Shown here: piece after piece, positions 3,086-33,488 of the stretch
Position numbering within the stretch: position 1 is the first letter of the stretch
Layout of the letters: the number at the start of each line of letters is the position of its first letter
NCBI RefSeq assembly: GCF_030408635.1
Contig: NZ_CP047198.1
Location: 930,001-994,000, forward strand
Direction: 5' to 3'
DNA: 64,000 bases
DNA from: Corynebacterium coyleae
Lineage (GTDB): Bacteria; Actinomycetota; Actinomycetes; Mycobacteriales; Mycobacteriaceae
Position numbers and translations under genes: made by a program
The notes under the pieces: generated by a model
The model's database searches: none
The model's input: only the letters and a program-made list of their open reading frames with translations
What the model was told of the DNA's origin: nothing

Positions 3086-3227
3086 CGCGGGGGCCTTCCT
3101 CCAGAGGACAAAAATCGACCCCTCTATTCTGGCACTTCCACACGCCGAAGTGTTGGTATCGCCCACCTTTACGGGGGAGAAGCCCGCCCGTTCTGGGGCG
3201 CAGGTGGCTCATGACATACTGAAACGC

Positions 3228-9755: not shown

Positions 9756-10841
9756 GTGAGCCTTACTCTTGGAATTGTCGGTCTGCCCAACGTCGGTAAA
9801 TCCACCTTGTTTAATGCGCTGACGCGCAACGAGGTGCTTGCCGCTAACTACCCGTTCGCCACCATCGAGCCGAACATCGGCCTGGTGGAGCTGCCGGATC
9901 CGCGCCTGGATCGGCTGGCGGAGATCTTCGACTCGGAGCGCGTGCTGCCAGCAACCGTGTCCTTCGTGGACATCGCCGGCATCGTCAAGGGCGCGTCCGA
10001 GGGCGAGGGCATGGGTAACGCCTTCTTGGCCAACATCCGTGAGGCGGACGCGATCTGCCAGGTGGTGCGTGCGTTTTCCGACGACAACGTCATCCACGTC
10101 GACGGCCAGGTCAACCCGTCCTCGGACATCGACGTGATTAACACCGAGCTGATCCTCGCGGACCTGCAGACCATCGAAAAGGCCCTGCCACGCCTGGAGA
10201 AGGAAGGCCGCAAGGACAAGGACGTCGCCGACCAGGCCGAGGAGGCTAAGAAGGCCCAGGCCATTCTCGAAGACGGCCGCACCCTCTTCGCCGCCTCCAA
10301 GACCGGCGATATCGACCTGGCACTGCTGCACCACCTGCACCTGATGACCGCCAAGCCGTTCCTCTACGTCTTCAACTCCGACGAAGCCGTGCTGACCGAC
10401 GAGGCGAAGAAACAGGAACTGCGCGAACTCGTCGCCCCTGCCGAGGCTGTGTTCCTCGACGCCCAGACCGAAACCGAGCTGCTCGAACTTGACGACGAAG
10501 ACGCAGCCGAGCTCCTCGCCGCCGTCGGCCAAAACGAACCAGGTTTGAAGACCCTGGCCAAGGCCGGCTTTGACACCCTCGGCCTGCAGACCTACCTCAC
10601 CGCGGGCCCGAAGGAGGCTCGCGCCTGGACCATCCACAAGGGGGACACCGCCCCGAAGGCCGCAGGCGTGATCCACTCCGACTTTGAAAAGGGCTTCATC
10701 AAGGCCGAAATCGTCGGCTTCGAAGACCTGGACGCGCTCGGCTCCATGGCCGAGGCCCGCGCCGCCGGCAAGGTCCGCCAGGAAGGCAAGGACTACGTCA
10801 TGGTCGACGGCGACGTGGTCGAGTTTAAGTTCAATGTGTAG
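9756..10841 (+). CDS. ychF: Redox-regulated ATPase / Obg-family GTPase YchF
   Basis: 361 residues. The G domain has the P-loop GLPNVGKSTLFN near residue 8 and switch region DIAGIVKGASEGEGMGN near 69, and NSDEA occupies the specificity position, consistent with the ATP preference of YchF/OLA1. The C-terminal TGS domain ends EFKFNV, typical of the family. The start is the GTG at 9756 (MSLTLGIVGLPNVGK). It acts at the ribosome and in the oxidative stress response. The last 21 bp of this gene recur at 12185 and 15401, marking a probable integration site, so the present 3' end may come from an incoming element. Confidence 0.95.
   Translation: MSLTLGIVGLPNVGKSTLFNALTRNEVLAANYPFATIEPNIGLVELPDPRLDRLAEIFDSERVLPATVSFVDIAGIVKGASEGEGMGNAFLANIREADAICQVVRAFSDDNVIHVDGQVNPSSDIDVINTELILADLQTIEKALPRLEKEGRKDKDVADQAEEAKKAQAILEDGRTLFAASKTGDIDLALLHHLHLMTAKPFLYVFNSDEAVLTDEAKKQELRELVAPAEAVFLDAQTETELLELDDEDAAELLAAVGQNEPGLKTLAKAGFDTLGLQTYLTAGPKEARAWTIHKGDTAPKAAGVIHSDFEKGFIKAEIVGFEDLDALGSMAEARAAGKVRQEGKDYVMVDGDVVEFKFNV
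10821..10841 (+). repeat. Putative attachment-site copy A, inside the 3' end of ychF
   Basis: The last seven codons of ychF (encoding EFKFNV-stop). It differs from copies B and C at two positions, TTT for TTC and AAT for AAC, both silent. This is expected if a mobile element carried its own ychF tail and rebuilt the gene on insertion. Confidence 0.7.
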
Positions 10842-10964
10842 GTTAGCCGAATAAGAAGCTCTGGCAGATGGTGGGGCAATCCTGCTCTGACATCTTAATC
10901 TAGCTTGGGTGCGCTGGGATTAGGACTGGTCACGTGTGAGAAGTTTTCGTGTACAACTAGTGAC

Positions 10965-11939
10965 ATGAACTTTTTATTGCTCGGTGGTACCGGTTTCCTT
11001 GGAGGACACATTGCGGCTGCAGCAGTCGACCGAGGCCATCAAGTTACTTGCCTTGCACGAGGTAACGGGAAGGCTCCCAACGGAGCTGAGTTTGTGAGTG
11101 CGGACCGTGACCGTGACGGTGCGTACGATGAGGTTGCGGGGAAAACTTGGGATACCATTGTGGATCTGACGAGTCAGCCGAAGCATGCGCGGGATGCGGC
11201 GGCGAAACTCCAGGCCAAGCATCGTATATTTGTGTCTTCGAGCAGCGTATATGAGGATCAGGGAAGTATTTCTTCCGAGTCTGATTCCGTAGTCACTCCG
11301 CTTGAAATTGACTACATGGAGGACATGGGGCAGTACCCAGCCGCAAAGTCTGCTTGCGAAACGATTTATCGCAGCACAAATCGGTCGGTAATGGTAGTTC
11401 GACCCGGTCTGATCGCTGGCTACGGCGACGAAACAGGGCGCAGTGGTTACTATCCGTGGCGCTTCGCGCATCCCACGGGTGAGAACGTGATCGTCCCAGA
11501 CCCGGCGTTTCCCGTCGCTATGATTGATGTGAAAGACCTTGCAGACTGGATAGTTGAGTCTGCAGAAGTTGGAACTTTCGGAACCTTTAACGCCACGGGG
11601 TTTGCTACTTCCTTATCCGATGTGTTCAAGATTTCGCGTGAGTTAACCGCATCGGAGGCTACGGAGCGACCTTGCTCTGATGAACTGCTTCTCGCTAATG
11701 ATGTAACCCCGTGGATGGGCCCAAAATCGTTGCCGTTGTGGGTACCAGGTGAACAGTTTCGCAACATCGCGCTACTCGATTGCGCCACAGCCTACGAAGC
11801 TGGCCTGCGGATTCGACCGTTGAAGGAAACATTGGCGGATGCGCTGCGATTCGAAGAAGAACAGCAGGGTGAAAGACTCGCTGGGCTCAGCGATGAAGAG
11901 GAAGTCGTGCTTCGCCAGCGGTTAGAAGATGGTATTTAG
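10965..11939 (+). CDS. NAD-dependent epimerase/dehydratase family protein
   Basis: A 324-residue extended short-chain dehydrogenase. It has the Rossmann nucleotide-binding motif GGTGFLGG near residue 7, FVSSSSVYED around residue 90, a shifted active-site region where the usual YxxxK appears as YPAAKSACE near 124, and VVRPGLIAG near 146. Such proteins act on nucleotide sugars or cofactor-bound substrates; the substrate cannot be told here. The ATG at 10965 is chosen because the Rossmann motif follows directly. Base composition is visibly more AT-rich than the flanks. The gene is alone between two copies of the ychF tail, which suggests it was brought in by a mobile element. Confidence 0.8.
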   Translation: MNFLLLGGTGFLGGHIAAAAVDRGHQVTCLARGNGKAPNGAEFVSADRDRDGAYDEVAGKTWDTIVDLTSQPKHARDAAAKLQAKHRIFVSSSSVYEDQGSISSESDSVVTPLEIDYMEDMGQYPAAKSACETIYRSTNRSVMVVRPGLIAGYGDETGRSGYYPWRFAHPTGENVIVPDPAFPVAMIDVKDLADWIVESAEVGTFGTFNATGFATSLSDVFKISRELTASEATERPCSDELLLANDVTPWMGPKSLPLWVPGEQFRNIALLDCATAYEAGLRIRPLKETLADALRFEEEQQGERLAGLSDEEEVVLRQRLEDGI

Positions 11940-12184
11940 TTTCGGTAGGAACAGTTTTAGTTGCAGTCGGGACCGCGCTGAGTTGGTATTCGTTCCGCGG
12001 CTGACTGTGAGAATGAGTCCGAATCGGACTTGAGGGCAACTTCTGCGGTGCTAGCTCTTCATCACGGGGAGCGATCTGGCCTTCGGAGGTTGCCTTTCCG
12101 AGCAGAAAACTCCTTGCGGCACACTTTTCAGGTTTCTCGAATCGCTTGCAACTGAGTGAGGTAGCCTTCTTTCGCCACTCCGTC
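11940..12184. other. Intergenic stretch of accessory segment 1
   Basis: No convincing gene. A reverse frame of about 100 codons exists but overlaps the end of the epimerase gene, has no domain pattern and reads through the repeat at 12185. No recombinase or terminator could be recognised. Confidence 0.5.
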
Positions 12185-12205
12185 GAGTTCAAGTTCAACG
12201 TGTAG
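12185..12205 (+). repeat. Putative attachment-site copy B (displaced ychF tail)
   Basis: Identical over 21 bp to copy C at 15401; with one mismatch the match extends 5 bp further upstream. It still reads as EFKFNV followed by TAG although the rest of ychF is absent. It separates the epimerase segment from the mercury segment. Confidence 0.8.
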
Positions 12206-12328
12206 TGCTTAACCTCTGCGATGAACTCTTTGATCCCGGGACGTGATGAGGACTGGGGCTATTGTGCTCCCCCGAACGCTACGGCCCGGGGGCACGAGGC
12301 TGTGTCGCAGGTGCAGGCGAGAGGACCA

Positions 12329-12598
12329 CTAGCGAAACACAGACCGCTGAGTCGACGCAGTCACGGTAAAGACGGAGCCGTCTAGGCGGTGCTCGAGGTT
12401 GCGCGAGATACGGTGACGCTGGGCGTCGGTAAGCGATGCGCATTCCGCGACATCGATGGAAAGCTGGACTTTGCCGTCCGTCGTGTTGACGCCCTGGCCG
12501 CCCGGAGTCGACGATTTCGCGAAACGCTCCGCGAGATCGGCGGCGATGACCGCACCGTCGGGGATCCCCGGGCCGGGTGCTATGGTCATGTCGTTCAT
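12329..12598 (-). pseudogene. Truncated arfB copy (release-factor-like peptidyl-tRNA hydrolase)
   Basis: 89 residues that match the first part of the intact ArfB encoded at 17335-17778, including the catalytic GGQ (PGGQGVNTTD near residue 32). It ends at QRSVFR followed by TAG, where the intact copy continues QRSQVRNRAEARERL and a basic tail. The missing C-terminal tail is the part that inserts into the empty mRNA channel of stalled ribosomes, so a working rescue factor is unlikely. It is diverged from the full copy, so not a fresh duplication. It lies in the accessory segment downstream of the mer genes. Confidence 0.8.
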
Positions 12599-12790
12599 GC
12601 CGCCCAGCCTAGGTGCCCACAACCCTTTCTCGTCTCGGCGGAAGCGGAGACCGCGTCGCGACGGCCGGGATCCAGCCTCAGGATTATCCTCGTCACCGGT
12701 TGATTCGAACGCTTTTTGCTCCTCCTTCTCCCGTCGGGCTTCGATTTCAGCGGCCTCCGCAGGTGGCAGTGATCGCTGGATCCGCTCGAA
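12599..12790. other. Short gap between arfB fragment and mer cassette
   Basis: No open frame with a recognisable domain on either strand. This is probably the junction between the mer cassette and the sequence carrying the arfB fragment. Confidence 0.4.
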
Positions 12791-13141
12791 CTACCGGTTC
12801 CGATCAGCGGTCGAAAGATTTTCGCAGCAGCCGGACCTGCGGCGCCGGTGCCGCCGCCGTAGCCTGACGAGCATCCCCGCCATGACGGCCATCACGACGG
12901 CGGTCCCGGCACCGATGATCCAGGGATTACCGAGGAGCCCACCGACGCCTGCGAGTGCTCCGCCCGCCGCGATGAACGGCAGGCCGCAGCAGAGCAGCGA
13001 CGGAAGCGCGCAGCATGCCAGCAAGAGCAGCCCGGTCACTGCAGCGACGACGGGACCGGCGCGCCATTCGTCGCGGTCCTGATCGGCGCTCATCGTCTGC
13101 TTCAGGATGAGATCTCCCCGATTGCCTGCGTTGCCGTTCAT
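12791..13141 (-). CDS. Small two-helix membrane protein with paired cysteines, putative Hg(II) uptake
   Basis: 116 residues from the ATG at 13141 (a second in-frame ATG at 13093 gives 100). Two hydrophobic helices are visible, the first containing two vicinal cysteine pairs (LLACCALPSLLCCGLPF) and the second around AGTAVVMAVMAGML, then a very basic tail with one more Cys pair. Paired cysteines in a short two-helix protein are the hallmark of MerF/MerT-type mercuric ion transporters, though overall similarity could not be tested. The upstream start overlaps the merA stop as ATGA, implying translational coupling. The job inferred is delivery of Hg(II) to MerA. Confidence 0.65.
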   Translation of the reverse strand: MNGNAGNRGDLILKQTMSADQDRDEWRAGPVVAAVTGLLLLACCALPSLLCCGLPFIAAGGALAGVGGLLGNPWIIGAGTAVVMAVMAGMLVRLRRRHRRRRSGCCENLSTADRNR

Positions 13142-14559
13142 GCGCAGCACGACAGCAGCGACGGGTCGGTGGTGAAGGCCTTCGCGGCGATCCGGATGCC
13201 CTCGGCCATGGTCAGGTAGGGGGCCCAGGCGTTGGCGACCTCGGCGACGGTCCTGCCGAGCACGTGGACGCCTGCGGCGGCGAGCTCCCCGGCGTCCTTG
13301 GCGACGGCGGTCAGGCCGAGGATCTCTTTCGTCTCGGCGTTCACGACGATCTTGATGAACCCGCGGGTGTCGCGGTTGACCAAGGCGCGGGGCACGTGGT
13401 GCAGGGGCAGGACGCGGCAGTCGCAGTGGATCCCTGCGGCGAGGACGTCCTTCTCGGTCATCCCGACCGCGCCGATCGCGGGCCCGGTGAACGTCACCCG
13501 CGGCAGGCGGGCGTAGTCGACGGACCGGTCGGCGTCGGCGAACGCGTTCTCGGCGACGAGGGTGCCGTGGTGGGCGGCGACGTAGACGAACTCGGGGTGC
13601 CCGGTCACGTCGCCCGCGGCCCAGACCCGCGGGTTCGAGGACTGCAGCCGGTCGGAGACGACCACCTCGCCGGAGTCTCCGGTATTCACCCCGACCGCAT
13701 CGAGGTTCAGGCCATCGGTGACGGGACGGCGTCCGAGGGCGACCAGGACCTGGTCGGCGCGGAACTCCTGCGAGCCGCCGGACAAGGCGGCGGTCACGAC
13801 GGCCTCGCCTCCCGTGCCGCGGGAGACCCGGGTGGGCACTGCGCGGCTGACGACGCGGATGCCCCCGTCGGCGAACACCTCCTGGAGCGCCTTCGACACC
13901 TCCGGCTCCTCCTTCGAGGCGAGCCGGGACCGCACGAGCAGCGTGACCTGCGAGCCGAGGCGGGCGAACAGCTGCGCCTGCTCCAGGGCGACGTAGCCGC
14001 CGCCGAGCACCAGCAGCGACTCGGGGACCTCCGTCAGCTCCATCGCCGTGGTCGAGGTCAGGTATCCGGTCTCCTTCAGGCCGTCGATCGGCGGTGCCCA
14101 CGGGCGAGAACCAGTCGCGACCAGGTAGTGGTGGGCCTCGATGGACTCGACGCTTCCGTCGGATCCGGCAACATCGAGAACCGGCGCATCAGGGGTGCCC
14201 ACGAACGAGGCGTCGCCGCGGAGGACCTGCCAGCCGTAGGAGTCGGCGACGTCGGCGTACTTCTCGCCGCGCAGCGACTCCACCAACGCTTGCTTCCCAG
14301 CGATCAGCGCGGGCATGTCGACGGGATCCGCCGTCGTCGCGATCCCGGGGAACCGGGTTGCGGCGTCGACCGCGACGTGCCGCGCGCCGGCCGCGGCAAT
14401 GAGCGCCTTCGACGGGACGCAGCCCGTGTTCACGCAGGTGCCGCCGAGCGTCCCGCGCTCGATCATCACCACCGACTTCCCGAGCGTGCTGGCGCGGATC
14501 GCAGCGGCGAACGCGCCGCCTCCCGATCCGATGATGGCGAGATCGTACTTCGTAGGCAT
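13138..14559 (-). CDS. merA: Mercuric reductase
   Basis: 473 residues of the pyridine nucleotide-disulfide oxidoreductase family, reducing Hg(II) to Hg(0) with NADPH. Visible: FAD motif GSGGGAFAAA near residue 11, redox-active CVNTGCVPSK near 43, NAD(P) motif GGGYVALEQAQ near 185, second FAD motif VWAAGDVTG near 306, and a C-terminal vicinal pair (LLSCCA) that receives mercury and distinguishes MerA from lipoamide dehydrogenase. There is no N-terminal heavy-metal-associated domain. The ATG at 14559 has GGAG upstream. Local GC content is much higher than in the flanking core, a sign of transfer. Confidence 0.93.
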   Translation of the reverse strand: MPTKYDLAIIGSGGGAFAAAIRASTLGKSVVMIERGTLGGTCVNTGCVPSKALIAAAGARHVAVDAATRFPGIATTADPVDMPALIAGKQALVESLRGEKYADVADSYGWQVLRGDASFVGTPDAPVLDVAGSDGSVESIEAHHYLVATGSRPWAPPIDGLKETGYLTSTTAMELTEVPESLLVLGGGYVALEQAQLFARLGSQVTLLVRSRLASKEEPEVSKALQEVFADGGIRVVSRAVPTRVSRGTGGEAVVTAALSGGSQEFRADQVLVALGRRPVTDGLNLDAVGVNTGDSGEVVVSDRLQSSNPRVWAAGDVTGHPEFVYVAAHHGTLVAENAFADADRSVDYARLPRVTFTGPAIGAVGMTEKDVLAAGIHCDCRVLPLHHVPRALVNRDTRGFIKIVVNAETKEILGLTAVAKDAGELAAAGVHVLGRTVAEVANAWAPYLTMAEGIRIAAKAFTTDPSLLSCCA

Positions 14560-14600
14560 CGCTACTCCTGTCAACTCTTGGCTTTCTGCTCTGTCTCAGC

Positions 14601-14633
14601 CATACTGGACCTTCCAGTGCAGGGGAAGGTCAA
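14601..14633 (-). promoter_or_regulatory. MerR-type operator/promoter of merA
   Basis: A perfect 8-bp inverted repeat (GACCTTCC at 14608-14615, GGAAGGTC at 14624-14631) with an 8-base spacer lies between divergent merR and merA. Read on the minus strand it overlaps a TTGACC -35 and a CAGTAT -10 separated by about 20 bp, the overlong spacing that MerR-family activators correct by twisting DNA. Confidence 0.75.
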
Positions 14634-14657
14634 GCGCGGCCACGGAGGGAGACAGCA

Positions 14658-15047
14658 ATGTGGATCGGAGAACTCGCCGAGAGGGCGGGCACTACCGCGA
14701 AGACCCTTCGCTTCTACGAGGAACAGGGCCTTCTGCCCCCGACCGAGCGCACGCCGTCCGGATACCGCGACTACGCGCCCGAGACGGTCGCTCGGATCGA
14801 CTTCATCCACCGCGGCCAGGCCGCGGGTCTCACTCTCGCCCAGATCCGCCAGATCCTCGACATCCGCGACGGCGGCCATGCGCCCTGCGAGCACGTGCGC
14901 GACCTGCTTGACGTGCGCCTCGCTGAGATCGAGCAGCAGATCGCGCAGCTCTCCGTGCTGCGCGACACTATCGCGGACCTTAGCCAGGACGCCGCGCACC
15001 CGGATCCTGAAACGTGCAGCACCGATCAAGTGTGTAGATACTTGTAG
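14658..15047 (+). CDS. merR: Mercury-responsive MerR family regulator
   Basis: 129 residues. The N-terminal winged helix (IGELAERAGTTAKTLRFYEEQGLL) is followed by a long dimerisation helix and a C-terminal metal loop. Three cysteines lie at the positions MerR uses for Hg(II): APCEHV near residue 79 and CSTDQVC near residues 120-126. Divergent from merA over the dyad operator, the normal arrangement for repression without and activation with mercury. Confidence 0.9.
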   Translation: MWIGELAERAGTTAKTLRFYEEQGLLPPTERTPSGYRDYAPETVARIDFIHRGQAAGLTLAQIRQILDIRDGGHAPCEHVRDLLDVRLAEIEQQIAQLSVLRDTIADLSQDAAHPDPETCSTDQVCRYL

Positions 15048-15090
15048 ACGGCGGGAGTCAATGACTCAAACGCTACAACCCCGATATGCG

Positions 15091-15339
15091 CTAGCGCATG
15101 TCGATGCCGCCGGTGCCCACCTCGATGATTTTGGTGGTGGCCGCGATAGCACACAGCAGCGGCATCGGGGCGGAGGCCTGCAGTGCGAAGTGGTGGACTC
15201 GGAAGGACGCGTTGTTCACGCCGATTTCGTCCGCAGCCTGGGTGATCTCCAGACGAGTCTTGGCGATCTTTTCCGCAGATGGCCCGCACTAGCTGCCGAA
15301 GGCGTAATGCCCGAAGCTTAAGAAGCCGAACGCTTTCAT
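15091..15339 (-). pseudogene. Remnant of a luciferase-like (LLM class) flavin monooxygenase
   Basis: Begins well (AAAGGAG then ATG, MKAFGFLSFGHYAFGS) but hits TAG at codon 17. The same frame then continues with family-like sequence (SAEKIAKTRLEITQAADEIG, VHHFALQASAPMPLL, IIEVGTGGIDMR) and stops again at TAG where intact members read MRYEN and continue for about 280 residues. Only the first 80 or so codons remain. The break falls in a 14-bp perfect palindrome (15086-15099). Confidence 0.75.
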
Positions 15340-15400
15340 TGGATAACACTCCTTTTGATGGTGTTAACGAGAGGGGGTAACTTTGCAACGACATACCGTG

Positions 15401-15421
15401 GAGTTCAAGTTCAACGTGTAG
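15401..15421 (+). repeat. Putative attachment-site copy C (displaced ychF tail)
   Basis: 21 bp identical to copy B and 19 of 21 to the present ychF end. The stop codon of the convergent VOC gene begins one base after this copy. The simplest ancestral order is therefore ychF directly facing the VOC gene, with everything from 10842 to 15421 inserted. Confidence 0.8.
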
Positions 15422-15772
15422 CTAGGCCTCGGGGCTGCCCACACAGAACTCGTTGCCCTCTGGATCCTGCATGACGGTCCACACCAATCCCGGTGCTTTG
15501 TGGGTGCCGAGTTCGGTTGCGCCCAAGCCTTTGAGGCGCTCTACTAAGGATTCGCGCTCCGCCCCGCCAGCGTCGATGTGCATGCGGTTCTTGCCAGGCG
15601 TGGGATCGTCAACGCGCTGAAACCCTAGCGCTGGGGTGGAATCAACCATCACGAAATCGCCGTAATCCGCGGCGATTTCGCAACCTGTGGCGGCGGACCA
15701 AAACTCGGCGAGCTGGGACGGTTCGAGGCAGTCGAAAGTGATCTGGCGGATCGTGAAGTTGGGGTCGCTCAT
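15422..15772 (-). CDS. VOC family (glyoxalase/bleomycin resistance-like) protein
   Basis: 116 residues forming one vicinal-oxygen-chelate module pair. Typical elements are ITFDCLEPSQLAEFWSAATG at the N-terminus, RMHIDAGG in the middle and WTVMQDPEGNEFCVG at the end. The substrate is not predictable. The ATG at 15772 is preferred over upstream in-frame starts because family similarity begins with it. Its stop abuts copy C of the ychF tail repeat. Confidence 0.8.
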   Translation of the reverse strand: MSDPNFTIRQITFDCLEPSQLAEFWSAATGCEIAADYGDFVMVDSTPALGFQRVDDPTPGKNRMHIDAGGAERESLVERLKGLGATELGTHKAPGLVWTVMQDPEGNEFCVGSPEA

Positions 15773-15828
15773 GGGCATCATTATGGGGGCGGGGCTAAGA
15801 AAGCGCAGCATGGTGTCCGGGCGGGGAC

Positions 15829-15976: not shown

Positions 15977-16105
15977 GGTAGCCACCGTAATGCGGAGCTT
16001 GCGACGGTGTGGTTGCGTAAAGTGGGTGTGCATTTGTATTCGGGCGAGCACAAACTTAACGTTGTGCGTTATTGACGCTTCGCGTTATGGGGGATAGGGT
16101 GAGAC

Positions 16106-16387
16106 ATGATCCAGTCATTCGCTGACAAGGACACTGAGCGTCTGTGGAATCGAGAGCGGGTCCGCTCGATCGATTCCCGCATTCACTCAGTAGCGCTGCG
16201 CAAGCTTCGCCAGCTTGGGTACGCGCAGACTCTCGATGAGTTACGGATTCCTCCGGGAAGCCGGCTCGAGGCCTTGAAAGGCGACCGGCGGGGTCAGTTC
16301 AGCATTCGAATCAACGACCAGTGGCGGATCTGTTTTCGGTGGTCCGCCGCGGGGCCAGAGGAGGTTGAGATCGTTGACTACCACTGA
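16106..16387 (+). CDS. higB: HigB-type (RelE superfamily) mRNA interferase toxin
   Basis: 93 residues with the HigB pattern: SFADKDTERLWN at the start, SRLEALKGDRRGQFSIRINDQWRICFRW in the core and a short C-terminal strand EEVEIVDYH. Toxins of this type cut mRNA at the ribosome. Toxin-first order with an overlapping antitoxin gene is normal for HigBA. Two copies of GCGTTAT (16066 and 16082) upstream could be operator half-sites. Confidence 0.9.
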   Translation: MIQSFADKDTERLWNRERVRSIDSRIHSVALRKLRQLGYAQTLDELRIPPGSRLEALKGDRRGQFSIRINDQWRICFRWSAAGPEEVEIVDYH

Positions 16388-16682
16388 CAAGCTCCCTCCG
16401 GTTCACCCGGGTGAGATCCTTATGGAGGACTTTCTCAAGGAAATGGAGATCACCCAGCACAAGCTGGCCGTCTCCATCGGCGTTCCGCCCCGCCGGATCA
16501 ACGAAATTGTTCACGGTAAGCGCGCTGTAACCGCTGACACTGCCCTTCGTTTGGCGAAGTTTTTCGGGATGAGCCCCCAGTTCTGGCTTGGGTTACAGGC
16601 CCAGTACGACCTGGATGTGGCAGAAGACAAAATCCTGGCGGAAATCGAACGGATTCAGCCGCTCCAGGCTGCCTCGGCGTAG
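16374..16682 (+). CDS. higA: HigA family antitoxin (XRE-type)
   Basis: 102 residues from TTG at 16374, chosen because AGAGGAGG lies 9 bases upstream and the protein then begins TTTDKLPPVHPGEIL, the family N-terminus. The helix-turn-helix covers TQHKLAVSIGVPPRRINEIVHGKRAVTADTA in outline. Overlaps the end of higB by 14 bp, so the two are translated in step. It neutralises HigB and represses its own promoter in characterised systems. Confidence 0.9.
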   Translation: MTTTDKLPPVHPGEILMEDFLKEMEITQHKLAVSIGVPPRRINEIVHGKRAVTADTALRLAKFFGMSPQFWLGLQAQYDLDVAEDKILAEIERIQPLQAASA

Positions 16683-17334: not shown

Positions 17335-17778
17335 CTAAGGAATCTGGGGCCGCTTCCTCATGGACTTCAGCTCCGAGCGACGCATCTTCGCTTCTCGACG
17401 GCGCCGCACCGAGCCCCTGGTCGGCTTCGTCTTGCGCCGCGGGGGAGGCGGCGGGGCGAGCGCCTCGCGCAGCAGGGCGGCCAACCGCTCGCGCGCCTCG
17501 GCACGGTTGCGGACCTGTGACCGCTGGGACGACGCTGCCACGGTGAGGACGGTGCCGTCTAGGCGATGCTCGAGGTTGCGCAAGATGCGGCGACGTTGGG
17601 CGTCGGTAAGCGATGCGCATGCGGCGATGTCGAGGGAAAGCTGTACCTTGCTGTCGGTGGTATTGACGCCCTGGCCGCCCGGCCCCGACGACTTTGCGAA
17701 CCGCTCCGTCAGGTCGGCGGCCGCGATGACCACGCCGCCGGGGATCCCCGGGCCGGGCGCGATGGTCAGGTCGTTCAT
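17335..17778 (-). CDS. arfB: Peptidyl-tRNA hydrolase ArfB (ribosome rescue)
   Basis: 147 residues. The RF-1 domain has the GGQ loop (GPGGQGVNTTDSK near residue 35) and is followed by a proline-rich hinge and a strongly basic C-terminal tail (RRRREAKMRRSELKSMRKR) that enters the mRNA channel of stalled ribosomes. Start MNDLTIAPGPGIP at 17778. A shortened relative lies at 12329-12598. Confidence 0.9.
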   Translation of the reverse strand: MNDLTIAPGPGIPGGVVIAAADLTERFAKSSGPGGQGVNTTDSKVQLSLDIAACASLTDAQRRRILRNLEHRLDGTVLTVAASSQRSQVRNRAEARERLAALLREALAPPPPPRRKTKPTRGSVRRRREAKMRRSELKSMRKRPQIP

Positions 17779-17799
17779 GCCGCCCACCCTACGTCCGAG

Positions 17800-18411: not shown

Positions 18412-18682
18412 ATGAAGACATCGCTTTACGTTTCGATCCCCGGCAATGCCTGAGAGGCGCTCGAGTTTTATCACGGCGTGTTTGGCGGCGACGACCTGCA
18501 AAATCAGAAAGGCACTCTCGACCGTGGCGTGTTTGGATTCACCGTCGACGTTGAGTCGGTGAAAGAAGGCGAGCGTCTCATCGAACGCCTTACCGCAGGC
18601 GCCATGGGGTGCGCATTTCGGGGTGCTCGAGGATAAGTTCGGGCTCGCATGGAACATCAGCACCGGAGACGGTCCTCGCTAA
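18412..18682 (+). pseudogene. Inactivated VOC/PhnB-like glyoxalase-fold gene
   Basis: Reads MKTSLYVSIPGNA, TGA, EALEFYHGVFGGDDLQNQKGT, GVFGFTVDVESVKEGERLIERL, then a one-base shift near 18600 restores WGAHFGVLEDKFGLAWNIS and a stop. One nonsense codon (likely CGA to TGA) plus one frameshift in a sequence otherwise following the family from end to end. Its stop overlaps the end of the FUSC gene. Confidence 0.8.
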
Positions 18683-19743
18683 CTCACCTTCCGCGGCAGC
18701 ACCACGGTGGGGTACTTGCGCACGTATCCCACCGCGATGATCGCCAAAGCAGCCACCGCGCCGAGCATGGTTTCTGCGGTGCGGGCGAGCAGCATTGGGA
18801 CGACTGGGGCGGCGTCGACAACTTGCACCATCAAAAGCGCGGTCGGGGTGATGAAGCTGGCGGCGATGGTGTAGTTGCGGGTCACGTACATCTCGGTCAG
18901 GTACTGCAGGATGACGATCCACACCACAATCTGCCAGCCCTGCGGGTGATGCGACAGCAGGAAGCCGGTCACAGCGATACCGGTCAGGGTGCCAAGGACG
19001 CGCTCGATGGCACGGAAGTACTGCACCTTAAACCGGGAGTTCACTAGGGGAGCGGCCGCGGCGACCATGGCCCAGTAGGAGTGGGAGAGGGGGTCGAAAA
19101 GCGTCACCGAAATCAGGCCTAAGGTTCCAGCGAGCAGCGGGGCGAAGAAGAACCGGTTTGCCTCGACCGCAAGGCGGCGGCTTGGCACCCGGCCTGCGTC
19201 GGGGGCTCGGGCGGGGATCTCGCTTTCCTTCGCATCGCCGCCAGGGCCTTCGCCGATGAGGTGGGAAAACTGGCCCAAGATGAGGCATACCAGCGCGGCT
19301 CCTCCTGCGATGGCGAAGGCGAGCAACGGATGCACCGGGTTGCTCAATGAACCGACGGCGGCGACAGCAAAGATGACGAACACGGAGCCGGTCGGTTTCA
19401 TATCGGTGGCCAAGGCGATCGTCGCCCATACTGATGAAGCGATGGAGGTGACAATCAGCAGGATCCAGGGGCTGACATCAAACCACGCGATGGTGGCGCC
19501 GAGGGTGACCATCAAGGTCAGTGCGGTGCCGGCAAGCATGTGGTGCTTCAGACGGACCTCGCGGGTGGCATGGCGGCCGTACACGCCGGTAAAAGCGCCG
19601 AAGTTTGCGTAGATGGCAAGGTCGAGCCGCCCGAGCGCCAGCAGGGTAAACATGGGGATGGCCACGCCGAGCGCGGTGCGGAAGGCGGGGATATGGTCGC
19701 GTCGTGCAGGTCCCATCGTGAATAGTGGGCTGAAATGACGCAA
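18679..19743 (-). CDS. FUSC family membrane protein (aromatic acid exporter-like)
   Basis: About 354 residues with two blocks of transmembrane helices (about 25-165 and 210-340) separated by a short loop with ESEIPARAPDAGRVPSRR. This duplicated-half layout is typical of the fusaric acid resistance/aromatic acid exporter superfamily. The TTG at 19743 is preferred because AGGAGG lies six bases upstream. The exported substrate is unknown. Confidence 0.75.
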   Translation of the reverse strand: MRHFSPLFTMGPARRDHIPAFRTALGVAIPMFTLLALGRLDLAIYANFGAFTGVYGRHATREVRLKHHMLAGTALTLMVTLGATIAWFDVSPWILLIVTSIASSVWATIALATDMKPTGSVFVIFAVAAVGSLSNPVHPLLAFAIAGGAALVCLILGQFSHLIGEGPGGDAKESEIPARAPDAGRVPSRRLAVEANRFFFAPLLAGTLGLISVTLFDPLSHSYWAMVAAAAPLVNSRFKVQYFRAIERVLGTLTGIAVTGFLLSHHPQGWQIVVWIVILQYLTEMYVTRNYTIAASFITPTALLMVQVVDAAPVVPMLLARTAETMLGAVAALAIIAVGYVRKYPTVVLPRKVS

Positions 19744-19853
19744 CCGGGGCCTCCTCAATATCGAACTTGTTCATGCTGCCCTGCTAAGGCACTCGAAATA
19801 CTCTAATGGTCACTTCAAAATGTTTCAGAAGAGGGCCGTTAAGGTGTGCGCAT

Positions 19854-31939: not shown

Positions 31940-32958
31940 TATTTACCCCCAATGGCTTTGAGCGCGGTTGCGATTGCGGTGTCGATTTCGGCGTCGGTGT
32001 GCGGGATGGAGTCGTCGGCAAGATGCCCCCACCTGCGCTGGAATCGTTCCTGGAGTTCGTGGCGTTTGGCGTACGGCACTTGGTGCTTATTTTCGACGAC
32101 CACACTTCCGCCGTTGTTATCCACCGTGATGTACAGCAGCGTGGCGTCAGGGGAGACCTTGAGCATGAAGTTCAGGTCGGGAAAGCACAGTGCCCACCAG
32201 TTGTACTCAGCCGACGGTTCGAAGGTGACGTATTCGGGCAGGTCGGAGATCCGGTACGCGGTCGCCGCACCGCACTGGGTTGGCTGGGTGCTTGCGGCGG
32301 CGTCCATGTACTGGGCGTAGACGTAGGAGGCGTAGCCCATGTCCTGGAGGATCTCGTACCACTGGTTTGGCTCGATCGAGGTGGTGTAGGGGCCTGGGGA
32401 GTATGCGTCGGGGTGGCCGGTGTCGGCGATCAGGCTGGCATCCCCAAGCCCGGTTCGTGTCGCATTGCCCGGCCAGAACAGTTCGCGCACCTCGACGCGC
32501 ACTGGGCTGGAGCACAGGACACGGTTGAGATAGTCCTCGCAGGCCTTCGGGTCCGCGAACGCTTCCAGGCGCACTGGGGTGTAGGACACCTCGACCACGT
32601 TGTGCTCGGCGCGCTGAAGTTCGGAATCCAGATCGTCGCCGTGCCAGCGCGGATCCTGTCGGTCGGCTTCGCGCCCGCAGCCGTCGAGGTAGACGATGGC
32701 GTCGTACCAGTCCAGAAGCGTCACCGGTCGCTGCGGCAACTCGGGGATATCACGGGTGAGAACACCGTTGATGGTCACGGATTCCACAGTGTCGTCCTCG
32801 CCGAGGCGTAAACCGTACACGGCGTCGCCGCCGGTGTAGGTGCGGGCGTGGATCTGCCAGGTGTCGCCTATAAGCGAAAAGTCCCCCGGTGAAACCTTGG
32901 ATAAATACGACGGAACGTAATCGGGTGCGGCGGCCAGCGCGCGCTCGAAAGGATTCAT
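31939..32958 (-). CDS. Hypothetical protein of unknown family
   Basis: 339 residues, no signal peptide and no transmembrane helix. It has a regular codon structure and ends in a charged helical tail. No motif pointing to a function was recognised. First gene of a two-gene operon with the small Cys protein; divergent from the 2H phosphoesterase gene with 38 bp between starts. Confidence 0.65.
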   Translation of the reverse strand: MNPFERALAAAPDYVPSYLSKVSPGDFSLIGDTWQIHARTYTGGDAVYGLRLGEDDTVESVTINGVLTRDIPELPQRPVTLLDWYDAIVYLDGCGREADRQDPRWHGDDLDSELQRAEHNVVEVSYTPVRLEAFADPKACEDYLNRVLCSSPVRVEVRELFWPGNATRTGLGDASLIADTGHPDAYSPGPYTTSIEPNQWYEILQDMGYASYVYAQYMDAAASTQPTQCGAATAYRISDLPEYVTFEPSAEYNWWALCFPDLNFMLKVSPDATLLYITVDNNGGSVVVENKHQVPYAKRHELQERFQRRWGHLADDSIPHTDAEIDTAIATALKAIGGK

Positions 32959-32996
32959 GCAGCCACAATACGCATGTAAATAGGTACGCTACTGGC

Positions 32997-33488
32997 GTGT
33001 CACCCGAGAATATTTTGTTGCGCATCCCGGAGGAGGAAGAACGCGCAGTTCGGCAGATCTACGCGGAGCTCGCGGAGCGGGGCTTCCCGCAGCAGCACCA
33101 ACGGCCGCACATCTCGGTTACCTTCGCACCGACAATGCACCGCAACGCTATCGGGGAGGCGGCAGTCATCCTGCCGCCAGAATTGCCAGCTGCTTTACGA
33201 CGAACCGGGGTCGTCGTCTTCGGCACCAAATCCAAACAAACCGTGGCCTGGCTGCTTGAAGGCCCCGAATCCCTCGACACGGCAGCCCAGCGCGTCAGCG
33301 CCGCCAACCCGGACGGTCGCGGCGCTCGCTGGATCCCGCACCTGACCATGGGACTGCGTATTCCCAAGGCCATGGTGCCGGACTACATCGCAGCGTTAGC
33401 CGAGGTCACATCCCCGCACTTCAAAGAACTCACCGCGGAATACGCCGCGCTCTACCAGCCGTCGCTGGGCACTGAGTTACGGCTCTGA
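32997..33488 (+). CDS. 2'-5' RNA ligase / 2H phosphoesterase family protein
   Basis: 163 residues with the two His-containing motifs that define the 2H fold: RPHISVTF near residue 36 and PHLTMGL near 117. The members hydrolyse or form 2',3' or 2'-5' phosphodiester bonds in RNA or nucleotides. The GTG at 32997 follows a TACGCT -10-like box by only a few bases, so the mRNA may be leaderless. A longer frame upstream would overlap the divergent gene. Confidence 0.8.
   Translation: MSPENILLRIPEEEERAVRQIYAELAERGFPQQHQRPHISVTFAPTMHRNAIGEAAVILPPELPAALRRTGVVVFGTKSKQTVAWLLEGPESLDTAAQRVSAANPDGRGARWIPHLTMGLRIPKAMVPDYIAALAEVTSPHFKELTAEYAALYQPSLGTELRL

Follow-up and report, generated by a model that had tools for sequence, protein, structure and literature searches.

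The ychF locus of the window

The window, i.e. the whole stretch of DNA analysed, comprises 64 kb of the Corynebacterium coyleae genome (contig NZ_CP047198.1, positions 930,001 to 994,000) and contains the gene ychF, which we take to code for a translation-associated GTPase/ATPase. Behind the 3' end of this gene lies a row of small cassettes, each of which begins with a copy of the ychF end (Table 1). The terminal 24 bp of ychF (10818-10841), coding for VEFKFNV and the stop codon, recur at 12182-12205 and 15398-15421, all on the plus strand; in the following, these sequences are named tails. A degenerate pattern allowing for up to three mismatches has exactly three matches in the window and none in 100 dinucleotide shuffles. 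Over the 24 bp, the second and the third tail differ at a single position. A previous reading of this stretch (the sequence-only reading) had noted three copies of a 21 bp ychF end, the two downstream ones deviating from the present end at two positions; this holds, the deviations being of the wobble type, and the repeat could be extended to 24 bp. The repeat pattern is real, but the window holds a fourth, decayed tail as well (16043-16066). It shares 17 of 24 positions with a tail that often precedes a cassette with the toxin-antitoxin genes HigBA, a score exceeded by no 24-mer of the window other than the three clear tails; two other 24-mers reach a score of 16. Homology to the HigBA cassettes begins at 16045, i.e. 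inside the decayed tail.

Table 1. Features of the ychF locus (positions in the window)
Feature	Position	Strand	Remark
ychF, presumed translation-associated GTPase/ATPase	9756..10841	+	target gene, named by homology; 3' end is the insertion site
Tail 1, present ychF end	10818..10841	+	VEFKFNV*; GT at 10818-10819 is the putative crossover dinucleotide
Cassette 1, 1364 bp	10818..12181	+	content aligns with other loci
NAD-dependent epimerase/short-chain dehydrogenase-reductase (SDR)-like gene, cassette 1	10905 (open reading frame) or 10965 (ATG)..11939		Pfam Epimerase, 22.5 bits (cut-off 20.9)
Recombinase-type arm, right end of cassette 1	12160..12181	+	13/22 to mirrored class I attP arm
Tail 2, displaced ychF end	12182..12205	+	
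Cassette 2, mercury cassette, 3216 bp	12182..15397	+	end-to-end alignments in other loci
Truncated RF-1-domain (release-factor-like) gene, cassette 2	12329..12622	-	PF00472, 25.6 bits, below cut-off (35)
merA, mercuric reductase	13138..14574	-	Pfam Pyr_redox_2, Pyr_redox_dim; plasmid matches annotated merA at 98%
merR-family regulator	14658..15047	+	Pfam MerR
Recombinase-type arm, right end of cassette 2	15376..15397	+	16/22 to mirrored class I attP arm
Tail 3, displaced ychF end	15398..15421	+	
Glyoxalase-like vicinal oxygen chelate (VOC) protein, cassette 3 cargo	15422..15811	-	Glyoxalase_6
Decayed fourth tail	16043..16066	+	17/24 to HigBA-linked tail; preceding 22 bp resemble class I arm
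HigB-like toxin, cassette 4 cargo	16106..16387	+	PF05015, cassette homologues
Helix-turn-helix (HTH) antitoxin, cassette 4 cargo	16365..16682	+	PF01381, cassette homologues
RF-1-domain gene, in HigBA cassette family	17335..17787	-	PF00472 over cut-off
LigT/2'-5' RNA ligase-like gene	32889..33488	+	weak Pfam match; close behind ychF in some relatives

The VOC gene, which lies on the minus strand directly behind the third tail, had been regarded as the next core gene, once facing ychF. This assignment had to be dropped: homologues with 79-89% identity are found in 12 of 81 other loci, several of them directly behind a tail, which speaks against the VOC gene as core neighbour of ychF and marks it as cassette cargo. 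On the whole, the observation made by the sequence-only reading was confirmed, and its interpretation is partly supported.

Tails and cassettes in the genus Corynebacterium

A degenerate VEFxFNV* pattern was run on 201 Corynebacterium genomes, one per species and including the window's own genome; all 201 have a match to ychF. The pattern occurs in 79 of 121 and in 60 of 80 genomes of two batches, and the reversed pattern, which served as control, matches none of the 201. Among 239 tail matches, 100 are ychF's own end and 112 lie downstream on the strand of ychF within 60 kb; the remaining ones are located on other contigs (15), elsewhere on the contig (6), or in genomes without a listed ychF position (6). 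The position of ychF is known for 175 of the 201 genomes, and the latter six tails were left out of the distance counts. At least one extra downstream tail was found in 52 genomes, at least two in 32. The tail spacings 3212-3219, 2906-2907, 1363-1367, and 4739 bp recur in an order that varies between species, and the same units lie between the tails.

The content of the cassettes was compared with 81 other loci, which were mostly selected for tails or for the large serine recombinase (LSR) described below, and 20 of which were taken as single-tail loci. The mercury cassette aligns from its first to its last base (3192 bp) at 97.0-99.6% identity in 19 of the 81 loci and partially (2642 bp, 92.5%) in two further ones; for ychF itself, the DNA identity is 80-91% in the ten genomes compared. 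That so many loci have this cassette in common at such identity indicates a recent spread within the genus. Four loci share at least 1335 of 1340 bp of the epimerase cassette with 94.7-96.0% identity; in a fifth (L034), the alignment extends over 1169 bp at 95.6%. The cargo in relatives comprises a P-type ATPase accompanied by an ArsR-like regulator, a multicopper oxidase together with a histidine kinase, and restriction systems; the smallest array units measure about 0.7-3 kb. A search for the cassettes on plasmids gave 17 matching records, none of which covers more than 49% of the query, with matches essentially to the mer genes. In four genomes (G036, G051, G093, G109), tails away from ychF adjoin cassettes or an LSR element; in G093 and G109 (L147:1962, L148:2194) it is a VOC cassette that lies behind a ychF tail far from ychF. 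RF-1-domain genes recur in many cassettes, two of them in the window (12329-12622 and 17335-17787), which is curious beside a translation factor gene.

The sequence-only reading had proposed an integration hotspot with different cargo elsewhere, which is borne out across other Corynebacterium species, and site-specific insertion into the 3' end of ychF, with which the distribution of the tails and the association with an LSR agree. It had also expected that sites without the inserted segment exist and that tails are connected with insertions; such sites were found in other species, and of the 239 copies, 100 are the ychF end and 112 lie downstream of it. The hotspot is real and much larger than had been stated.

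As to the sites without the segment, the LigT-like gene is situated about 398 bp (L175) and about 478 bp (L191) past the ychF stop codon in genomes G148 and G066. It was found in the stretch read of five of the 20 single-tail loci, in three of these at a distance of 2.2-4.2 kb. The other single-tail loci have different genes behind ychF, i.e. the right neighbour of ychF varies in any case. In two of the five LigT loci, a relative of the window gene at 18679-19758 is found near ychF; therefore, part of the stretch from 18.7 to 32.9 kb need not be inserted. The LigT-like gene may be used to mark the outer boundary of the hotspot and is no proof that everything in front of it was inserted. All single-tail loci stem from other species; they document a variable interval rather than the exact pre-insertion sequence.

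A large serine recombinase beside ychF

A comparison of the LSR of genome G016 with the 201 genomes gave matches in 82 (E ≤ 1e-5), among these 25 with E < 1e-110. In 18 of the 25, the LSR gene lies on the strand of ychF within 8.2 kb and in one on the opposite strand within 2.5 kb; it starts 22-24 bp past the ychF stop codon in eight genomes and 52 bp past it in one. The protein consists of 503 residues and contains a Resolvase (PF00239) and a Recombinase (PF07508) domain, both scoring over the cut-off, which identifies it as a large serine recombinase. The best match among solved structures is named Integrase (9iu2, E 6.5e-12), followed by TP901-1 integrase. Within the arrays, PF00239 matches complete genes that follow ychF directly and gene fragments that follow tails. 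Searches for close relatives gave 940 phage records and 118 plasmid records, all with less than 60% identity; the best phage row is a Microbacterium phage with 42.5% over 72% of the query.

The supply of the recombinase from elsewhere, as proposed by the sequence-only reading, fits these findings: the LSR gene lies beside ychF in relatives, and no cognate gene was found in the window's own genome. It contains a pair of neighbouring serine recombinase genes with frames of 497 and 537 residues (G000:C1:334296-336215); the pair exists in G054 and G060 too, and its first member is the 24% match to the ychF LSR over 195 residues. The tyrosine recombinase domain PF00589 gave 70 matches in 19 Corynebacterium genomes, none of which is located inside a ychF array; this speaks against a tyrosine recombinase as agent of the arrays.

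In the LSR elements, the LSR is either the first gene after ychF or follows restriction-modification genes. In seven elements the LSR gene lies kilobases behind ychF, and the first open reading frame (ORF) begins at -4, -4, -4, -4, +6, +39, and +97 bp relative to the stop codon. According to Pfam, it codes for a methyltransferase in four of the five elements scanned; the ORF of L164 has no Pfam match and is followed by a type II methyltransferase. Of the two further elements, L163 and L165, the former resembles L162 by eye. The overlap of 4 bp suggests that translation of the first ORF may be coupled to that of ychF. One element, L160, contains between ychF and the displaced tail the LSR gene, a relaxase gene (PF03432), and an HTH_17 gene, i.e. 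integrase and relaxase lie within one pair of att sites, as in an integrative and mobilizable element (IME).

According to the YchF end that they bring, two classes of elements can be distinguished. With class I elements, whose LSR gene is located at 177-1688 in L124, YchF ends with VEFRFNVT* (variant: VEFKFNVT*); the element sequence is the same in several species, and the host base just in front of the GT that opens the tail differs. In G036 and G051, a class I element at a non-ychF site starts with the same ychF-like end (L152:6943, L153:6712), which indicates that this end belongs to the element; these sites, behind which more cassettes are located, suggest secondary targets. With class II elements, to which L160 belongs, YchF ends with VEF(R/K)TG(L/I)(T/P)S... 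This end occurs in 15 of the 201 genomes, ten of which possess a strong LSR match, compared to 15 of the 186 other genomes (Fisher p 2.9e-7); a canonical tail follows downstream in nine of the 15. Altogether, ychF's own end deviates from the canonical pattern in 25 of the 52 genomes with a downstream tail; in G017 the deviating end is VDFKFNV, which is a difference of a single residue only.

Crossover point and cassette ends

The linkage of tail bases to their neighbourhood was determined for 108 distinct tails, 21 of which are ychF's own ends; tails with N, short flanks, or identical surroundings had been removed. The loci of this analysis and of those on arms and cassette ends had likewise been selected mostly for tails or for an LSR. 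Each variable position agrees better with the type of the right neighbour (z 0.7 to 12.1) than with that of the left one (z -2.0 to 2.1). The right linkage is strongest at the last positions (z 5.9 at position 21, 12.1 at position 24), and positions 3, 6, and 9 show no left linkage (z -0.2, -0.9, -1.1). As the tail bases follow the right neighbour, the tail moves for the most part together with the unit on its right, and the putative exchange is to be placed at or near the tail start.

The arms of six LSR elements, the far arm being taken from the first tail downstream, are mirrored around the GT at tail positions 1-2 with 15, 16, 13, 13, 14, and 14 of 22 matches. Shuffled arms gave a mean of 5.7 and a maximum of 14 in 24,000 shuffles, and shifting the centre by 1-3 bases reduced the values to 3.8-6.8; the native site of the window scores 9 of 22. 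Thus, these six elements have the dyad arms around a central dinucleotide that characterize the attP of a serine integrase. The bases T20, A22, and C23, which mirror conserved left-arm bases, occur in 15 of 19 LSR-type right arms, a list that includes near-duplicates; native ychF shares the conserved left-arm bases, which are coding there. Taken together, the sequences point to the GT at the first two tail bases as the probable crossover, and the repeats are more plausibly remnants of earlier ychF ends than a long identity needed for crossover.

Cassette ends more than 80% alike were collapsed, which gave 31 and 30 types in two analyses differing in the recognition of ychF's own ends. Of the 30 types, 22 match an LSR attP arm (p < 0.01 per end), 16 of class I and six of class II. 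In the window, the end of cassette 1 shares 13 of 22 positions with the class I arm (reached by 3 of 5000 shuffles) and the end of cassette 2 shares 16 (0 of 5000); the 22 bp in front of the decayed tail share 12 (26 of 5000).

Proposed insertion mechanism and its alternatives

Based on these findings, the window very probably contains an array of recombinase-less cassettes at the 3' end of ychF, which were inserted by an LSR acting in trans; a cassette chromosome driven by an LSR at ychF is the best explanation of the hotspot. The reaction itself, its action in trans, and the order of events we infer from what the comparison of sequences demonstrates, i.e. the cassettes with their junctions, the association with LSR genes, the symmetry of the arms, and the displaced ychF ends. 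The LSR would exchange strands at the GT that opens the terminal eight codons of ychF, which comprise seven residues plus the stop codon. The incoming element would supply its own version of these codons, leaving YchF complete with a new C-terminus, and the old ychF end would come to lie beyond the insert. In this way, a series of insertions would generate a row of former ychF ends between the cassettes; in the window, three cassettes behind clear tails and one behind the decayed tail would have been inserted one after another. Autonomous elements would carry the LSR gene, at least one of them also a relaxase gene and a helix-turn-helix gene near its far end, and small cassettes like the mercury cassette would possess the ends only.

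Several observations weigh against this reading. The window's genome lacks a cognate LSR, the best match being 24% identical over 195 residues. Six of the 25 LSR genomes have the gene at a distance from ychF or on a different contig, and for two of these a different site is demonstrated; in three of the 25 (G036, G078, G141) the gene is damaged, being split in two cases and interrupted by an in-frame stop codon in one. Fifteen tails are found on contigs other than that of ychF. Related genomes may share one insertion, such that the counts do not represent independent events. In the linkage analysis, positions 11 (z 2.1) and 23 (z 1.8) show some left linkage, and position 12, which has the weakest right linkage, is hardly linked to either side. 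For G016, the far arm lies 28 kb away and its choice is an assumption; eight of the 30 cassette-end types match the arms of neither class. Among 150 genomes of the wider order, only two have an LSR match with E ≤ 1e-60, one of them beside ychF. Finally, the small cassettes have a canonical ychF tail where the LSR element has a mirrored right arm; consequently, their site is a hybrid, and serine integrases are not expected to recombine such a hybrid site with attB unaided.

A variant compatible with the proposed mechanism, to which we give a substantial but less than even chance, is that the cassettes were inserted as described and are now frozen in the lineage of the window. The missing cognate LSR and the decay of one tail would fit, whereas the near-identity of the mercury cassette in 19 loci speaks for recent spread in the genus.

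Homologous recombination between the short tail repeats, or transformation replacing whole regions downstream of ychF, would require no site-specific recombinase. In its favour, the tails form direct repeats, and a region in which several cassettes are shared could be transferred as a whole; moreover, crossovers spread along the tail would give the strongest right-neighbour agreement at the last positions, as observed. However, such crossovers should also link early tail bases to the left neighbour, and of this positions 3, 6, and 9 show nothing. As homologous recombination additionally leaves the mirrored arms, the LSR-type arms of the cassettes, and the LSR genes 22-24 bp past ychF unexplained, we consider it improbable. 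Still less credit is due to a tyrosine integrase as general agent at ychF with the LSRs as passengers: a tyrosine-integrase-like gene, recognized by two integrase profiles below their cut-offs, does adjoin the displaced ychF tail of an element resembling actinomycete integrative and conjugative elements (AICE-like; RepSA, weak FtsK) in Gordonia spumicola (L041:11057-20814), but PF00589 is absent from the arrays of the 19 Corynebacterium genomes, many arrays contain LSRs or LSR fragments, and the cassette arms match those of the LSR elements. The Gordonia element weighs against a role of LSRs alone, and an unrelated type of recombinase may also use the ychF site in this genus.

Comparison with known systems

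In staphylococci, rlmH receives the staphylococcal cassette chromosome (SCC, SCCmec) at its 3' end through the action of CcrAB or CcrC; these LSRs restore the end of the housekeeping gene and build composite tandem islands with recombinase-less members. The ychF arrays resemble SCC in the probable insertion by an LSR at the 3' end of a housekeeping gene and in the tandem islands with recombinase-less members, which are present at ychF. They differ in that the target is ychF instead of rlmH, in phylum and recombinase, and in the change of YchF's last residues; moreover, the full elements read contain one LSR gene at ychF, and the units are as small as about 0.7-3 kb. Integron gene cassettes are small units behind one fixed chromosomal site, each with a recombination site at one end. 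The ychF cassettes likewise accumulate as small units behind one fixed site, but a serine recombinase would take the place of the tyrosine recombinase, the sites are double-stranded dyads, and the row is anchored at the end of a coding gene; no IntI-type tyrosine recombinase was found at the arrays of the 19 genomes searched with PF00589, all 70 matches lying outside them. We tentatively suggest, as an idea that may well prove wrong, that ychF anchors a system equivalent to an integron but based on a serine recombinase: the cassettes would have a hybrid site with a P-type arm on the right and the ychF end on the left, and each insertion would regenerate the full target such that cassettes queue, while autonomous members would put restriction-modification genes directly behind ychF and exchange the C-terminus of YchF.

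The nearest system in the literature appears to be the Enterococcus cassette chromosome (ECC), for which PMC6222049 describes 50-bp direct repeats and a pair of ccr genes; its target and hosts differ from those of the ychF arrays. The serine-integrase integrative and conjugative elements (ICEs) and IMEs, which L160 with its relaxase resembles, and the LSR catalogue of Durrant et al. share with our system the LSRs, many of them specific for a single target gene, and the dinucleotide core sites, as far as the passages of PMC10083194 go. Arrays of recombinase-less cassettes do not appear in these passages, and ychF does not occur in the main text of that paper, supplements being outside this count. 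Among the matches listed in a search of the open-access literature, which excludes subscription papers, preprints, and supplements, there is no report of a serine recombinase or a cassette array at ychF; judged by title and beginning of the abstract, none of the open-access papers naming both ychF and Corynebacterium deals with this site. The nearest among them, PMC6375853, concerns a prophage of pneumococci with an excision tied to ychF; in PMC8637289, a pneumococcal prophage is placed at a site flanked by a DUF951 gene and ychF.

The proposed mechanism would imply that a conserved translation factor gene serves as an insertion hotspot throughout the genus and possibly in further actinobacteria. 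It would account for the way in which genes for metal resistance, toxin-antitoxin systems, and restriction pass in exact units from one Corynebacterium species to another, and it predicts a compact recombinase with a defined attP/attB pair. Should the hybrid sites of the cassettes be active, the rule that serine integrases normally recombine attP with attB would have to be widened.

ychF loci of other genera

For 70 ychF loci from other genera, up to 10 kb of downstream sequence were available and were searched with a looser tail pattern and no shuffle control. An extra downstream tail was found in ten loci, belonging to Gordonia, Dietzia, Nocardia (three), Prauserella, Janibacter, Rhodococcus, Brevibacterium, and a metagenome-assembled genome; some of these may be chance matches. 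A hidden Markov model built from 19 LSR frames of the Corynebacterium loci detected in the 70 loci only a fragment, in Demequina. The locus of Nocardia coubleae codes for a restriction-modification protein that shares 86% identity with a protein encoded behind ychF in Corynebacterium G009. By genome search, an LSR gene between ychF and a displaced tail was found in G202, which belongs to another family. In G219, the 20 kb read contain no ychF; a ychF-like tail on the minus strand lies there in a stretch with two LSR-like genes (L195, G219:C1:5022000-5041900), which is possibly another secondary site. The right flanks of three tails in Dietzia, Rhodococcus, and Brevibacterium (L045:11057, L071:11057, L073:16803) begin with cgtta(a/t)tgacg, as does the HigBA cassette of Corynebacterium.

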